Shown: piece by piece, positions 3,429 to 35,666 of the stretch | How positions within the stretch are numbered: position 1 is the stretch's first letter | Layout: each line of letters starts with the position of its first letter | NCBI RefSeq assembly: GCF_000003605.2 | Contig: NW_003155238.1 | Coordinates: 247,324 to 282,989 of the forward strand | Reading direction: 5' to 3' | DNA: 35,666 bases | Source: Saccoglossus kowalevskii | Lineage: Eukaryota > Hemichordata > Enteropneusta > Harrimaniidae | The notes under the pieces: model-generated | Seen by the model: only the letters and a program-made list of their open reading frames with translations | Databases searched by the model: none | What the model was told of the DNA's origin: nothing | Position numbers and translations under genes: made by a program

Positions 3429-3973
3429 TGCTGCAGGTAGGTCAGAGTACACGCACTGAACGGTCAATATTTTCTGCAGCTAGGTAAAAGTACACGCACT
3501 GAACGGTCAATATTTGCTGCAGCTAGGTCAGAGAACATTCGCTGAATGGTAAACATTTGCTGCAGTTAGGTCATAGAACATTCGCTGAACGGACAATATT
3601 TGCTGCAGCTAGGTCAGAGTACATGCGCTGAACTGTGAATATTTGCTGCAGCTAGGTAAAAGTGCCGTGATACGCTGAACGGACAATATTTGCTGCAGCT
3701 AGGCCAGAGTACATGCGCTGAACGGTCAATGTTTTCTGCAGCTAGGCCAGAGTGCATGCGCTGAACGGTCAATATTTCCTGCAACTAGGCCAGAGTGCAT
3801 GCGCTGAACAGTGAATATTTGCTGCAGCTAGGTCAGAGTGCATGCGCTGAACGGTCAATGTTTTCTGCAGCTAGGCCAGAGTGCATGCGCTGAACGGTCA
3901 ATATTTCCTGCAACTAGGCCAGAGTGCATGCGCTGAACGGTCAATGTGCAGTTGGGCCAGAGTACGCGCGGCG
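3429..3973. repeat. 43-bp minisatellite, about 12.7 copies
   Basis: Head-to-tail units built on CTGCAGCTAGG, CAGAGTACATGCGCTGAAC and GGTCAATATT. Early units diverge most, for example CACGCACTGAAC in the first two and CATTCGCTGAA in the third and fourth. Units 8-9 and 11-12 are nearly identical over about 78 bases at a 129-base offset (starting 3732 and 3861), so the array also grew by copying a three-unit block. The last unit is truncated. It has no coding potential and no unique spacers, so it is not a CRISPR array. Confidence 0.97.
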
Positions 3974-11812: not shown

Positions 11813-14105
11813 CAGATAACTCTGAATTAATAAAACAAGTAGGAACATGTAGGTCGTCGTGAGTTGTAATTCATTGTGAATATTTGGGCTTATTTCGTTA
11901 TTATTGCATGTGTAGTCTTACATCGTGGGTTCTCATAAACAATGGAGGCTAAGTAGTGAAACCAAACCATGCAGAATGTAATCCCTTAAATCTGTATACG
12001 GGAGAAGGAGGGTGGAGAGACGTATTCGTGGATGTTTTGTAAACGCAGCCCTGCAATACCTTTTTTTTACAGCAGTAGCAGCCGCAGAGATAAATTAAAT
12101 CTATTTTTTATTGTACACGATTTGTTTATAACGGATGCGATCATCGCATGGCGCAATACGCAGCGAGTTACTGCTGTAATATACTTTTATGTATGGCAAT
12201 ATTAAATTCTGACTAAATTAAAGTTGATTATTTCATTATAGTTATAGTGTAGTTTTGTGCGGTAGCCCCAATGACGTTATTTGTTTACAATGTTGACAAC
12301 CGGTATGTTCACGCCCGGCAAAATCGCCGTGCACGGATAGGCACAATTGTACCATATCGCACATCCATTTTTATGTTCTTGGAACCACTCCTTGCGCAGG
12401 CATGCACACCTGCGAAAGACGTAAGCAAGTTCGTTCTCCTATTCTCATGTGAAAAAAAAATTGTTTTCATCTATGGGCATTTACAATTCATTACCTCGAA
12501 TTATTCCCATTATGTTTTCTTATATTTAGAACTGCGGTCTCTTCATAATACTTAATCACGTAAACCAATACTCAATATTTTAAATAATTGGAGATACATT
12601 TCCCTCTTGTTTTTGTTCAAGAATGTGCTCCATAGCAGCTACAATAACCAGCGTCGTCGTGTTTTATTTTTGAAGGAGATTGTATCAATGCTGTAACTCT
12701 TCCAAGACCCAACTACCCATTGACGTGTAGAACGCAGGTGTATGGCAATATAATGTGATTGTATTATGAATTTGTCTGTGCCACAAATTTAGTTGATCTA
12801 TATCCTGAGACATATATTAAATTGGTAGATATCTGCAACTATAATCTAAGTACGTCACAAACGCCGGTGTACATCTATGTAATATAATGAATGCGATTAC
12901 ACGTGGTGTCGACAGGAACAGGGAAACATCATGTTTAGTTGATGCATATTTAATTAAAATATTACACAATACATTTCCGACACATGACAGCCCAACTTCT
13001 TTATCAGTATAAACGACATATCCATCCTACTGAAAGTATAGCCACATATATATGTACATTTCGACACACCCTTATATATTTAGACAGCTGCTTTTGGGGG
13101 AAATTTTGTCCTGGGCGTGAGTCCAATAAAAGTAGCTATGATTTACACTTAATCAATGTATATCGACTGAAGACTGCTCGTTATCTCCATTTAATTAAAG
13201 AATGTGCAACTATATATGCACACCTCAATAATCAATAAGAGCTTAGCAAACACATATACAACTTAGCACCAGAGCAATATAAAGAACGAAAAGTATATAA
13301 ACTGATAAAGCCGTCGGTACCACTCGTTTAATACTGAACAGTTGTATAATGTTGTACCGCAAGATGTGATAAGCACCCTTGTTTTCCCGGAAAAAGACGT
13401 CGCTAAGCGACCAATGTTCAACAGAAGGGAGGTCACGTTTCTGTCGTGTCACGGTCACTAATCCGAACTACATAGTACTAGTACGTAATACCATCACCAC
13501 TACTGGGAAATCATGTGCTTGTTCATTTTTCGACTTGCCTGATTTGTCTGGGTGGGGGGATTTATTGTCTCGTTCAATTTGTACACGAGATGGTCCTTAC
13601 TGCATTATATATTAGAAATACATGTTTAGTGAAATTTGTTATCCGTCTGATTGTGCGCTATATTGGGCGAAGGTGGAATTATTTGCAGCCGTGAATCATG
13701 ACACCGCTAATGATACTCTGCCGTATGTAACCATTGATGTGAATAATTCACACTGAACTCAAAGATTACTACAAACATATAGAAATAGACGAACAACACA
13801 TTACAATGAAGATGCAGTTCTACATGAACCAGTAAACACTCTGTGTACGGTATACAGTTAATCAACTGAACAGATCAAGCACAAGTTTAGAGTCATTATA
13901 TTTATAATTTAAATATAGCGATGGTTTGGTGAAACATATTCTCTAGTATATCTTCGTGTGTGTATTTAGAAGTATCGAATATTAAGAAAACACGCCAGTA
14001 CGATAAGGCATATTCACTATATAGTGTGTATCGAAAGTAGGGGATATGATCGGATAGGCAACGGATAGTAGGACAGACAGAAGAGAGAGAGAGAGTAAAT
14101 GCTTC
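11813..14105. other. Probable intron of the receptor-like gene
   Basis: This lies directly downstream, on the minus strand, of the splice donor at 14106-14111. I found no convincing second coding exon. A diverged direct repeat links about 12735-12770 and 12862-12900 (CGCAGGTGTA or CGCCGGTGTA, then AATATAATG). A short GA-rich tract at 14082-14096 sits just inside the intron. Confidence 0.5.
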
Positions 14106-14114
14106 ACTTACCTC
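14106..14114 (-). other. Splice donor of the receptor exon
   Basis: Read on the minus strand, the sequence is GAG followed by GTAAGT, a full-consensus metazoan donor. It falls between codons (phase 0), directly after the residues N-T-E, where related receptors continue with a cysteine-containing stretch. Confidence 0.85.
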
Positions 14115-14369
14115 CGTATTGACGACTACCATTCGTAACTCATAATCTTTTAGGACGTCTTCATTCTCATTGACGTGCTCTAACGCCAGCAAAGCCGAAT
14201 CGAGACAGTCATGGGCAATCGGTCCGAGAAAATCTAGGCTGAGTATCGAGTGGTTCAGTGGGAAAAATCCTCCGATGTGAAGGGGAATCTTAGCGTTGCT
14301 GCTACCTGTCCACAGGACGATAACTAAGGTGACGGGCAGGAGAATACGCTGAAGAGTCGAGAATGTCAT
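14112..14369 (-). CDS. First coding exon of a GABA-B-like class C receptor (partial)
   Basis: This encodes 86 residues from the ATG at 14369, ending in phase 0 at a GTAAGT donor. Residues 1-26 are a signal peptide: a short polar start, the hydrophobic core LLPVTLVIVLW, and a likely cut after SSNA. Residue 27 onward starts a type-1 periplasmic-binding (Venus-flytrap) domain. It has a first strand, IPLHIGGFFPLN, a helix, SALLALEHVNENEDVL, and a second strand, YELRMVVVN. That order, and the 'alanine-leucine ... VN ... DYEL' pattern, are typical of GABA-B receptor subunit 1-like ectodomains. The mature protein would be a plasma-membrane G-protein-coupled receptor with seven membrane segments encoded by exons outside what I can see. 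Another receptor with the same fold, such as a natriuretic-type guanylyl cyclase or another class C member, is the alternative. I am confident of a secreted or extracellular flytrap domain and less so of the GABA-B assignment. Confidence 0.75.
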
Positions 14370-14390
14370 ATTTTGCGCCGTCCTGTAAAT
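14370..14390 (-). other. 5' leader and splice acceptor of the receptor exon
   Basis: On the minus strand TTATTTACAG ends at 14383 and is followed by thirteen untranslated bases (14382-14370) before the ATG. The open frame continues upstream of this acceptor and includes another ATG at 14462. I chose the inner ATG because it puts the signal peptide at the N-terminus and follows a good acceptor. Confidence 0.65.
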
Positions 14391-14444
14391 AACAATCAGA
14401 AAAGGGTACATTAAGGAAATATTTCCGCACACACGAACGCTCAC
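14383..14444 (-). other. Possible 62-nt mini-intron in the 5' leader
   Basis: A good donor, TCG then GTGAGC (GT at 14444-14443), precedes the acceptor by 62 bases on the minus strand. If both are used, a non-coding first exon lies just upstream. A more distant donor would also work, so the leader exon is not defined. Confidence 0.3.
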
Positions 14445-14496
14445 CGATTCGGAGTGAGGCAATTTACAAGCCAGGCTAGAGATACATCGAGTAACA

Positions 14497-14506
14497 TCAC
14501 GTGACC
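14497..14506. promoter_or_regulatory. Extended E-box near the receptor 5' end
   Basis: TCACGTGACC carries the CACGTG palindrome with the flanking bases preferred by MITF/TFE/USF-type bHLH-leucine-zipper proteins. It lies about 130 bases upstream of the receptor ATG. No TATA box was seen nearby on the minus strand. Confidence 0.3.
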
Positions 14507-14914
14507 ATTCATTGTGTTACGCACATGCCTGATATTTACAGTGAATATTTTTCTAAGGCGTACAGGCGAATGATTACATGATGACGAGAGCTCCTCGCCT
14601 AGCCAACACCGGCAATTGTCGTCATGCGATCATTACATGTAAACTGTTGTTCAAACATACAAACAAGAGCGTGTGTGTATTTGATATATACATAGTTTTA
14701 TATTTGACATTTGCCATTTTCTCTCTCGTAAACATTAAATAAAATACATACAGTTACCATGGTAACGATCCACGATTCCGATGTACTCACGAAAATCATG
14801 TCCATCCATAGATTTGATCATTTTAGTAATCGATACGGGAACAATGGGAAGAAAAACGCGCAACGTGAAAAATGGATGTGATCAATGGTTTATTGTATTT
14901 TATATCAGAGCGCT
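14507..14914. other. Upstream flank of receptor exon, non-coding
   Basis: AT-rich. A loose inverted repeat (ATGATTACATGATGACGA near 14570 against TCGTCATGCGATCATTAC near 14618) could fold, but it is imperfect. No gene supported. Confidence 0.35.
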
Positions 14915-14997: not shown

Positions 14998-17420
14998 TTT
15001 TATTCCATGAGATTCGGAAAAAACAAATTCATAAAACGTAGTTTCATATGTATTTATAGATATAGTTATCAATTAACTTAACCAACAAGATGTCACGTAG
15101 TTGCTTGTTTGTACTTAATTCTTGACAGATTCTCCTAAGACGAAGACCCTCCTGTTTATTGTGATGAAAATGAATTGAGTTGACTCAATACCTTAAGATG
15201 TGAATAATCCATTGTACAGAGGGAGAAGAAAAAACAATACTGGAATTTCTATAATTCAACGATTTTTTTTCATACCACGTCACACAGTATGCAGTAACTA
15301 TAATGAGATCTAAGGCATTATGCATGTAGCGTCAATTAGTCAGGCTTCCCTCCGGACGAATGAAATGAAGAAGTGCTGTTACATCACTGTGACGTGCGAA
15401 AGCACGTATCTCTTACGACATTCCTCATCTTACCAACTGCTTAATATTTGGCATATCTTCAAGAGATCTGTTTTAGGACGTCTTCATAATTAATTGTACA
15501 GCAAACAACAAAACGCCATTTTCATATGAAAAAATAAAAAAATCCCGCAAGGTACAAACTTTGTTGGGATATAAATACGGAACCAATGACGTCATTATAT
15601 ATTAGATACGAGTATTTCCCATTTTTCGGTGAATGTATTATTGCTCTAGGGGTGATTCGGTTTCGTGATTGATTGAATGTGTTTGCTTCATGTAAGCTGC
15701 AATCTCGTACTTAACACACAGGGTACAAAAACGCCTGCTGTATGCGTACTAGAAATGAATGCGGATAGTATGCGCCGAATTTGAAACAAACAAACTCGCG
15801 TTCGGGTTTTTTGAACAAGCCCTCGAGTTTTGAAGCACTCCGAGTCGGAATGATCAACAGTTGAGTTGCGGCCGTTATGCATTAAACTATGAGAAAGATA
15901 TTCTCGTCCCAGAAATCATGCTTTTTTTGCTGTACGCGTAATTGGCATGGGCCTCTGGAGATCTCAATAAAAAGTGCCATTTTAATGATGTGTCACACGA
16001 GTAGACCGTCTCAATATAATAAACCGGATGATATATTGCTCGGTGTGGATATACGAGTACACCAGTGTAAAAGGTGACATTTATCAAAATATATTATCAA
16101 CACTTTTTTTATATAGATTATCATATTATTTTTGGGTAGTTACATATATAGTAGCGGTAGCCATGGCAACATAAATAGTCATTATCGTTTGCCCGGGTTG
16201 CATCTCAGCTAATTTGATGCCGTATTAAATAGCTGGTGTAGTGAGAATCGAAGGCGATGCTGTCAATGTCATAGACTACACTAGTCAAACAGGGTGACGA
16301 GTACTATATGTTAGTATGCATGTACTTGATATATTAAATCTTATTTTGCCAATCGGCAGATTTAATTTCCGGTCACTACCTTGACATTCGCTTGTTTCGG
16401 GCAATTCCTTCATATGAATAGAAGAGATTAAAATGTCGATATTAGTTTTGCAGTAACCTTAGCAGAAGGTCACCTCACGGTACAAGTGTCGATGAACAGT
16501 TAGTCGTCACTTCATGCAGTCGACAACGGAGAACGGTCTTTATACCAATGTGAATGTATACGCAAATGTTACGAACAAAGTGAATGGTGTGAATGAAGTG
16601 ACGAATATTTGAATGTCAATGTAGGACATGAACAAAGGACGAAGAGTCGACGTGTGTATACGTATGGTAATTGATTCGGGGGTTGGGGGGTTTCTCTGAA
16701 TCGCGCACTGACGGGAGGGTATATTTTACTTCCTGACGAAGCACAATACAATTAGCAGTCCTGGTAGTACTAAATTATCAGACTTGGTCGCAGAATGGTA
16801 GCAGAATCCTCCTATTAGGAGTGTGTTGGATGTATAATTTCGGACGGGTTTGCTGTGTATAAACATCGTGTGTTTATATTTATTTAACAAATTCCTAAAC
16901 CGGACATAACAGCTGGTCAAGACACAAGACAATTAATTGGTCAGTATATCCGAAATCACAGTTTGAAAACCAATTATCTTTATTGGTAGCCGAGTTTAGA
17001 TTATTAGTTTGTCATTCCTGTCTTAACCAAGATGTATTGCCCAATTTCCAGTGTAAAATCGATAGTTTGATATTCGAAAAGACACAAGGAGTAAAATAAT
17101 CTTTTTTCACCTCCATGTTTGAAGGTAGCTCCATTTTCGAAATAGAACAATAATCCCAAAGCGCCCTCAACGTCGATCATTTTTGGTGCACTTTTTTACT
17201 GACACTCCGACCCAAAATTGAAGTGAGTACGTTCGCAAAGCGCGAAACGTTTTACGTTGCTATTTCAGGGTGTTAACTCTCATTGAATTATCCCAGGGAA
17301 AGGATGTATAATAAATAGGTATGCATCAGGCAGTACGGTAACGCATCGGTCGATACGATAACCTTACTGCCTTCATGCAGACTTTGCGGTATTCGCGTAA
17401 TAACCACATAGGATCTGAAA
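14998..17420. other. Non-coding DNA, no gene seen
   Basis: Contains a perfect 12-base palindrome with a full CRE core, AATGACGTCATT (15585-15596), near a TATAAATA at about 15570. Without a transcript or frame nearby these are motif hits only. Nothing else could be supported. Confidence 0.4.
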
Positions 17421-17808
17421 CAATATGCAAATATTGTACTCTGTATATCTGAACCATATGTAAATATGTACTCTGTATATCTGACCAATATGTAAATATG
17501 TACTCTGTATATCTGAACCAATATGTAAATATTGTACTTTGTATTATCTGAACCAATATTGTACTCTGTATTATCTGAACCAATATGTAAATATTGTACT
17601 CTGTATTATCTGAACCAATATGTAAATATTGTACTCTGTATTATCTGACCAATATGTAAATATTGTACTCTGCATTATCTGAACCAATATGTAAATATTG
17701 TATTTTGTATTATCTGAACCAATATGTAAATATTGTACTCTGTATTATCTGAACCAATATGTAAATATTGTACTCTGTATTATCTGACCAATATGTAAAT
17801 ATTGTACT
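17421..17808. repeat. 35-bp minisatellite, about 11 copies
   Basis: Unit: CCAATATGTAAATATTG, then TACTCTGTATTATCTGA. The first three units are shorter variants (TATATCTGA ends, ATATGTAC middles), and unit 5 has lost about 11 bases. Later units are nearly identical, which suggests recent homogenisation. All units are contiguous, with no spacers. The two minus-strand open frames across it are repeat translations. Confidence 0.96.
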
Positions 17809-24288: not shown

Positions 24289-24452
24289 TTAAAGCGGCGG
24301 AGTCTTCACCTGCGCATGCGACACAAAGCCACAGCGCGTCGTTGTTTACAAATAAACGTCTATCCATGAGCCGTTGCGTTTTAGTGTGCGATGTTGTTGT
24401 CGTCGCTTGGTACTCAATTCCCGTGCGTACGCATGTGACCACACCGCTTTAA
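24289..24452. mobile_element. Complete 156-bp TTAA-flanked MITE, copy C
   Basis: TTAA at 24289-24292 and 24449-24452 flank a 156-bp element that starts AGCGGCGGAGTC and ends GTGACCACACCGCT. The terminal inverted repeats run about 28 bases: AGCGG, a GG core, TCACCTGCGCATGCG on the left, and the reverse complement of GCGTACGCATGTGACC on the right. TTAA duplications are the signature of piggyBac-like and some Sola elements. On the minus strand, GGAATTGAGTACCAAGCG and CACACTAAAACGCAACGG match copy A and the element end at 34029. It is non-coding and needs a transposase in trans. Confidence 0.85.
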
Positions 24453-34028: not shown

Positions 34029-34231
34029 TTAAAGCAGGAGGGTTGTCACCTGCGCACGCGCGAGAATTGAGTCCCGAGCGATGATAACAACACGCGCAAA
34101 TAACACAATAGTCGAGTAGGAAATATGGGTCCCCATGCACCCCAATGATATATTTTTTTAACTTGTATTTTTGGAATCGTCAGGTTGTCTAGTACACGAA
34201 TTTTGATGTTCCCATTGCGAAATTTTGTCCC

Positions 34232-34275
34232 ATGACGTCACTAGGCGGCCATTTTGGCAGCCATTTTTGGATTTT
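34232..34275. promoter_or_regulatory. CRE palindrome with two YY1-like motifs
   Basis: TGACGTCA (34233-34240) is followed by GGCGGCCATTTTGG and GCAGCCATTTTTGG, each resembling the reverse complement of an AAnATGGCnGCC YY1-type site. It lies in the 3' region of the decayed gene, inside the putative element. It could be an internal promoter or simply conserved element sequence. Confidence 0.3.
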
Positions 34276-34593
34276 TTTTACAGAAATCAATGAGCCGTAG
34301 AACTTTTGAACCAAACATCCCAGAGAGACAAACAAATGCATTTATCCATATAATTTGAACATGGGGAGTTCAATGAGAATGTTATTTTTGATATTGAAGC
34401 AGTATAAATGCCCGAAAGCCAAAATATCTTTTTTGGTCAATTAGCATAAGTAGTAAAAATAAGTACACAATATTTACTCACCAATATATCTGTAAACTAA
34501 AGTCAGTGAAAAGCACAAAAGCGTAGTTCAGTTGACATAAAAGTTGACAGAAAAATGATATTTTTTTTTTCGCTACAGGTTTTGGTAATGTCA

Positions 34594-34900
34594 TCATTTA
34601 GTCGTCAAATCTTCATAATCAATCTCTTGCTCCTCTTCTTCTTCTTCCTGATCGTCATCTACAGTTTTCACCAGCAAGTAAATTAGAGAAGAAGGGAGGA
34701 TCGGACCACATGACCACAATGACTCCAAGATACCTTTCTCATTCTTCGCCCAGCCCTGTCCTGGATCATATGGTTTGGGGGACCAGTAAAAAGGTTTGTC
34801 AGCTCACTTGAAGATTGCAAGCCGATAATTTACACATGCAACATGTGGAACAAGATAGTCCCTATTTATTCGTCAGCTTTTCATCCTCATTTTCATCCTT
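34594..34900 (-). pseudogene. Segment 3: C-terminus of the decayed gene, too broken for a long frame
   Basis: An acidic piece, KDENEDEKLTN (34900-34868), is out of frame with what follows. The next frame starts at NRDYLVPHVACVNYRLAIFK (34866-34807), meets TGA at 34806-34804, then reads ADKPFYWSPKPYDPGQGW and KGILESLWSCGPILPSSL. It finishes with a run of acidic residues, IDYEDLTTK and a stop. The TGA occupies the place where Arg follows Lys in relatives, so a CGA-to-TGA change by CpG decay is likely. Confidence 0.75.
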
Positions 34901-34910
34901 CCCTACCAGA

Positions 34911-35315
34911 GAGAGCCAAGTTGTTAGTTTTCACAGAATACTGCAGCATTAGAATAAGACGTGCATGGTCTATCACACTAAGCCAAAAGATTGCTGTCTT
35001 GCCAAGGTGGCCTGTACGTACTTTGTCTTCATAGGCAACATACATCTCAAGGACGGTGAGAGTAGAGGGGTCCTGCAAAGCAAGGTTGAGGGTCTCACAA
35101 CTACATGACTGGACAAGATTGAGTAGAGCTGCAGGATTGATTATCTCAATTTCTTCTTCTTCAATGAATTTCTCAATCAACAATCGTTCCATGACTTCAC
35201 TGACAGTTTTCAGACAAAAGAGAACTTTAGTGTATGCCTTCCCTTTCAACACACTAACTAGGCAGCCACTTGTGATGAGTTCAGCCTCAATTAGTATTTC
35301 AGAGTATCCTGAGCC
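34911..35315 (-). pseudogene. Segment 2 of the decayed gene
   Basis: This frame is open from GGC at 35315, just after an in-frame TGA at 35318-35316. It reads GSGYSEILIEAELITSGC and continues through KGKAYTKVLFCLKTVSEVM, an acidic stretch (EEEEIEII), and GHLGKTAIFWLSVIDHAR to SVKTNNLAL. Family similarity ends at about 34911. The last residues of the open frame (to 34893) are junction sequence. A start at GTG 35252 would be an artefact. Confidence 0.75.
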
Positions 35316-35666
35316 TCAACACGACCAGTTACCATGCCCATGTAATTCACCCCAGTCTCGAACGACCCTATTGTGACAATGTGTTTCTTGTATTCACCTG
35401 GAAACTTCCAAATTAGTGGTAGTGCCTTCATGCAACCTCCAAGGTCGAACGTGTTGAGGACATACTCCTGTCCCACCTCCATGGTAGCCTCCTCAGACCT
35501 CTTTAGCAGCTCCTTAATGACAGAGTACTCGGTGAAGGGTTGATTAATTGGGGTGAAGTAATCGATGGTTGACTTTTTGGAAGGCTTGTCACTAGTTGGT
35601 GATAAAAAACCCACCAACTCCTGGAATGAGTTGTTTTTCTCCACTGCTTCCAACCACCCGTGCAAA
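35291..35666 (-). pseudogene. Segment 1 of the decayed gene (open at the window edge)
   Basis: The frame is open to the right edge, so the true start is outside the window. It carries FTPINQPFTEYSVIKELLK, then EEATMEVGQEYVLNTFDLGG and KHIVTIGSFETGVNYMGM. It leaves the family pattern at the residues after MGMVTGR and stops at 35291-35293. Homology resumes in another frame from 35315, so one base has probably been lost at about 35310-35325. Confidence 0.75.

Follow-up and report, generated by a model that had tools for sequence, protein, structure and literature searches.

Two nested DNA transposons at the end of the window

The window (the whole 35,666-bp stretch of DNA analysed here, i.e. G000:C4442:247324–282989 of a 572-Mb genome) ends in two nested DNA transposons, a gene-bearing element with terminal inverted repeats (TIRs) lying inside an unrelated MITE flanked by TTAA. 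The gene of the inner element most likely encodes an AcademX-type transposase, which would combine a DDE-type core with a FEN/XPG/XRN-like nuclease. We set the element beside Academ on the basis of the features printed for that superfamily, from which the name AcademX would follow, and give this reading a probability of roughly 0.77.

The boundary between the two elements was located by a genome search with window positions 34029–35666 as the query. In total, 44 matches were listed; scoring covered 40 of the 1412 candidates, so that these matches sample the copies. Apart from the window itself, 43 matches were listed, and none of them spans positions 34108/34109: 29 are confined to query positions 1–83, which correspond to the TTAA repeat, and 14 start at query position 76 or later, nine of them at 76–81. 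The sequence-only reading had described the repeat as running into the gene-bearing DNA without a visible boundary; the edge is in fact sharp.

The other half of the MITE was found past the point at which the window copy of the inner element ends (C4442:286390 onward). When the two flanks were joined with a single CAA, an uninterrupted MITE was obtained that can be aligned over its full length with 10 of the 11 fetched MITE copies, the one outside this set (L026) being the copy that lacks the right half, and also with the MITE at window positions 24293–24448. Because the joined flanks restore the MITE, the MITEs do not derive from the gene-bearing element. The order of events would thus be that a short, non-autonomous TTAA element with 5'-AG...CT-3' ends inserted first and that a transposon of 4–5 kb with TIRs of ~280 bp later landed in it, duplicating CAA.

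Ends and target duplications of the gene-bearing transposon

The in-window part of the gene-bearing transposon spans 34109–35666, and the whole copy (C4442:281432–286389) is ~4958 bp in length, including 3162 bases of N. Its TIR, which begins TAGTCGAGTAGG..., occupies 34109–34387, sister copies matching to about 34387, and the far TIR of the window copy, which ends at C4442:286389, matches 34109–34337. The sequence from 34109 recurs in inverted orientation beyond the gene: the window copy has it at C4442:286389, and the copies L010 and L014 have it at both ends. The TIR identities are 84.7% over 229 columns in the window copy (L009) and 86.5% over 289 columns in L010. The terminus TAGTC(T/G)AGTAGG is present in 10 of the 11 terminus matches of the fetched loci (query included), two of the ten belonging to the window copy; the eleventh, in L012, begins inside the repeat (query position 36). 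Read at the junctions, the flanks of these ends look unrelated to each other.

All three copies with both ends are bounded by 3-bp target duplications, namely CAA, AAT, and TTT (the last, which sits in a run of T, is possibly TTTT). The left CAA of the window copy lies at 34106–34108, and its right counterpart follows the far end. These copies are 4958, 4315, and 5441 bp long, all with internal N runs, and the gene is located between the TIRs in L009, L010, and, in part, L014. An end search in the relative on C1850, which has 2756 N on one side, revealed no convincing TIR. These data indicate that the gene family is carried by its own TIR DNA transposon, which generates 3-bp target duplications. 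The family is thus mobile, as the sequence-only reading had supposed, while the mobile role that it considered not to have been described appears to be on record already under Academ, an identity that we infer.

Judging from the observed TIRs and target duplications, transposition would most likely proceed by cut-and-paste: the core would recognise the TIRs and join them to the target, the transposase cutting the element out at the TIRs and pasting it into staggered 3-bp cuts, and the nuclease may have a role in processing ends or flaps.

The TTAA-flanked MITE

In the window, the left TTAA of the interrupted MITE was read directly at 34029–34032, and the left half of the MITE proper occupies 34033–34108 (plus strand). 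The whole MITE, including the right half that lies outside the window from C4442:286390, is ~165 bp in length and flanked by TTAA. A complete MITE of a related subfamily, with the ends AGCGG...CCGCT, is present at 24293–24448 with TTAA on both sides (24289–24292 and 24449–24452), and a degraded or partial member of the same family lies at 393–509. A within-window repeat search with lenient scoring aligned the terminal repeat at 34029 with 24293–24448 in inverted orientation (76% over 82 columns, E = 3e-9) and also with 405–472, where the match is partial (73% over 71 columns, E = 3e-6). The earlier statement that the TTAA repeat is shared with two MITEs of the window therefore holds for the complete copy and, as far as the repeat itself is concerned, for 405–472, whereas the copy at 393–509 is degraded and has no intact TTAA.

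The 11 fetched MITE loci represent 13 of the 29 MITE rows of the genome search. The left TTAA is present in 10 of the 11 copies (the exception is L027), as is the right TTAA (the exception is L026), and the ends are mostly AGC(G/A)GG...CCCGCT, i.e. AG...CT. At one locus, L025, two MITE copies adjoin, the second beginning within a few bases of the end of the first. Kolobok elements are characterized by TTAA duplication and 5'-RR...YY-3' ends, according to PMC9587614. Because the TTAA duplications and the 5'-AG...CT-3' ends of the MITE match these features, including the RR...YY pattern, the MITE looks Kolobok-like, a label that its ends and target site suggest.

Protein pieces and their relation to DUF6589

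The gene in the window is decayed, its minus-strand reading frame being broken up over 34594–35665. Two pieces resemble a transposase core, i.e. a frame of 124 aa at 35291–35665 and one of 140 aa at 34893–35315, which differ in reading frame, and a third piece, within 34594–34803, represents the C-terminal tail (ADKPFYW...) of the protein encoded by the transposon, a tail which in L012 follows the nuclease-like region; all three are on the minus strand. The 140-aa piece gave 17 rows in the window's own genome, with identities of 28–100%; these include the window itself and two rows from one copy on C4071. The description of the locus as a decayed gene of a multi-copy family was thus confirmed. 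No Pfam match to the three window pieces was found up to an E-value of 1, the piggyBac domain included, in line with the earlier impression that the protein is not piggyBac-like. Against the PDB sequences, the 140-aa piece yielded nothing up to an E-value of 1, and the profile of the core alignment (A4) yielded nothing up to an E-value of 10. The structure model of the core is poor (pLDDT 45.5) and reveals no RNase H fold and no DDE triad, and in an alignment of DUF6589 with the relatives (A5) the first catalytic acid was not locatable and the alignment was not interpretable.

DUF6589 (Pfam PF20231), which had been proposed as a model for profile searches, turned out to be a good lead. An intact frame of 367 aa in L047 matched this family at an E-value of 0.0083 and 15.3 bits, which is under the cut-off of 27, and L036 matched it at 30 bits, which is above the cut-off. 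Two frames of L036 align with the core alignment A4: the upstream frame P0004 at an E-value of 0.00099, with a probability of only 21.7, and the downstream frame P0003 at 1.5e-7, with a probability of 93.9. P0003 also matched the start of the nuclease region weakly (E = 0.0012, probability 19.3) and, in a single comparison, L066 (E = 4e-7). The DUF6589-bearing locus L036 therefore resembles the gene family weakly in the core and strongly downstream of the core, whereas no match to DUF6589 was obtained from the window pieces, and Pfam lists the function of the family as unknown. There are 11 DUF6589 matches in this genome and none in the 14 control genomes, and the literature searched contains no mention of DUF6589. 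Long intact frames of 402, 258, 411, and 587 aa are present at four other DUF6589-bearing loci (L030, L031, L033, and L035, respectively).

These alignments suggest a distant relationship between the core and DUF6589. The gene probably encodes the transposase of the element, the core of which would be of the DDE type. A broader proposal is tentative and, in our estimate, rather doubtful: nuclease-bearing TIR transposons would have DUF6589 as their catalytic core, and the large invertebrate gene family seen in the window would form one branch of this transposase.

The nuclease-like region of the relatives

A close relative of the window copy, L012 (85–88% identical in two matched parts), carries the sequence ...EETDTR...RTPDTDIFVI... 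upstream of the shared C-terminal tail, and a genome search with a 56-residue peptide from this nuclease-like region gave 19 matches, counting L012. Across the expected site of this region, which corresponds to approximately 34803–34930 of the window (minus strand; the exact position is an estimate), the alignments of L010 with the window copy (L009) and with L011 are unbroken. Because the alignment is contiguous across the site, the absence of the nuclease-like region is shared by L009, L010, and L011; L012, for its part, is without a stretch retained by these three copies. The window copy therefore belongs to a subfamily of at least three copies without the nuclease-like region; the subfamily would have lost the nuclease part, and the window copy is now decayed.

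Thirteen pieces of the nuclease region were aligned (A2), and the frame of a distant relative, L060, served as the folding target. The predicted structure of its nuclease-like region has a pLDDT of 76.1 and a pTM of 0.79. Foldseek searches of this model against PDB returned 491 matches with E-values of ≤10, nine of which have E-values of ≤0.001 and are all XRN1, XRN2, or Rat1. Among the best 50 of the 491 matches, ranks 1–29 are all XRN1/XRN2/Rat1, T4 RNase H, Exo1, GEN1, or Rad2, with TM-scores of 0.31–0.49, rmsd values of 8–20 Å, and identities of 8–14%, i.e. a match at the fold level only. The A2 profile gave three matches to PDB sequences, all to Exonuclease 1 at the GCD motif, with E-values of 1–1.4 that are not significant alone. 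In Pfam, no nuclease family was matched by the 13 pieces at E-values up to 10, and the four scattered matches obtained, each confined to a single piece, belong to unrelated families. The relatives' nuclease-like region contains the acidic clusters ...EEADTR...PDTDV...GCDT, which we take to resemble XPG motifs.

The nuclease-like region is thus predicted to be of the XRN/FEN type, the folded protein being the distant relative L060 and not L012. The predicted fold of L060 is like that of FEN/XPG/XRN 5' nucleases (Exo1, GEN1, XRN2, and T4 RNase H), but the identity is 8–14%, no nuclease family is matched in Pfam, and the region is absent from the window copy. In another relative, L066 (450–2432, minus strand), two long open stretches of 308 and 352 aa, which share a frame and are separated by a single stop, span the core tail, linker, and nuclease-like region.

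Superfamily assignment

The Academ superfamily and the AcademX lineage were described by Kapitonov and Jurka (2010) and Kojima (2020), as cited in PMC4455052 and PMC10045372. According to the latter, AcademX elements generate target duplications of 3 or 4 bp and AcademH elements those of 9 or 10 bp, a difference that seems to be tied to the encoded enzymes, helicase and nuclease. The mean length of Academ elements in a bivalve library is given as 5565 bp in PMC10294476, and TIRs are a general feature of DDD/E transposons according to PMC9587614. The gene-bearing element is alike in its 3-bp target duplications, TIRs, and size of ~5 kb, and the protein of the gene family has a nuclease-like region, although neither the window copy nor two of its sisters has it. 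Because the length of the target duplications, the nuclease-like region, and the size all fit the features printed in these papers, an AcademX-type transposase is the best reading.

The strongest competing explanation is that the element represents a separate, undescribed TIR superfamily, in which a DUF6589-type core and a FEN/XRN-like nuclease are combined and which is distinct from AcademX. This reading is consistent with the lack of a Pfam match from the window pieces and of any mention of DUF6589 in the literature searched, and the likeness to Academ is one of described features. The same three features, however, all agree with the printed descriptions of AcademX and Academ, and we regard a separate superfamily as improbable.

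Far less probable is another superfamily with 3-bp target duplications. Such duplications are generated by EnSpm/CACTA and Harbinger elements, and CACTA is the terminal motif of the former. The ends of the present element read TAGTC and not CACTA, no transposase family was found among the Pfam matches of either the three window pieces or six pieces from relatives, and a nuclease-like region is, to our knowledge, not expected in either superfamily. A piggyBac or Kolobok identity was also rejected for the gene-bearing element, which shows no TTAA duplication but CAA, AAT, and TTT instead.

It is equally improbable that the gene was captured from the host as cargo and that the transposase is encoded elsewhere. 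The window copy is decayed, the fold of the core is unproven, and the 4.3-kb copy L010, of which 422 bases are N, has other frames, which were listed only; nevertheless, L009, L010, and, in part, L014 carry the gene between their TIRs, and the family recurs across the genome (17 rows, identities of 28–100%).

Least likely of all is the proposal of the sequence-only reading that the terminal repeat and the gene form a single TTAA-target transposon, with the MITEs as its internally deleted derivatives: the two do adjoin in the window and the repeat is common to the MITEs, but the joined flanks refute it, as do other gene copies, which begin at 34108/34109 and have independent flanks; none of the 43 other listed matches crosses this position (40 of 1412 candidates scored), the MITE resumes after the far end, the gene-bearing element has its own TIRs and duplicates 3 bp rather than TTAA, and the boundary between MITE and gene-bearing DNA that this reading had itself set against the proposal, near 34120, was found at 34108/34109.

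Other features of the window

Two tandem arrays of ~12 copies each were identified in the window, one with a 43-bp unit (3429–3945) and one with a 35-bp unit (17413–17808). An open frame of 204 aa at 13902–14516 (minus strand), for which Pfam gave no match at 0.001, presumably resembles, as judged by eye, the ligand-binding part of a GABA-B-type receptor.

Significance

A multi-copy, unnamed gene family now has its place in a defined transposon, the ends and target duplications of which are exactly known, and a false link between this family and TTAA elements has been removed. The nested insertion, together with its exact empty site, also shows which of the two elements came first. Should no Academ sequence match, the element would represent a separate superfamily with a DUF6589-type transposase and a FEN/XRN nuclease, and the link to DUF6589, if true, would provide this Pfam family, whose function is unknown, with a role.
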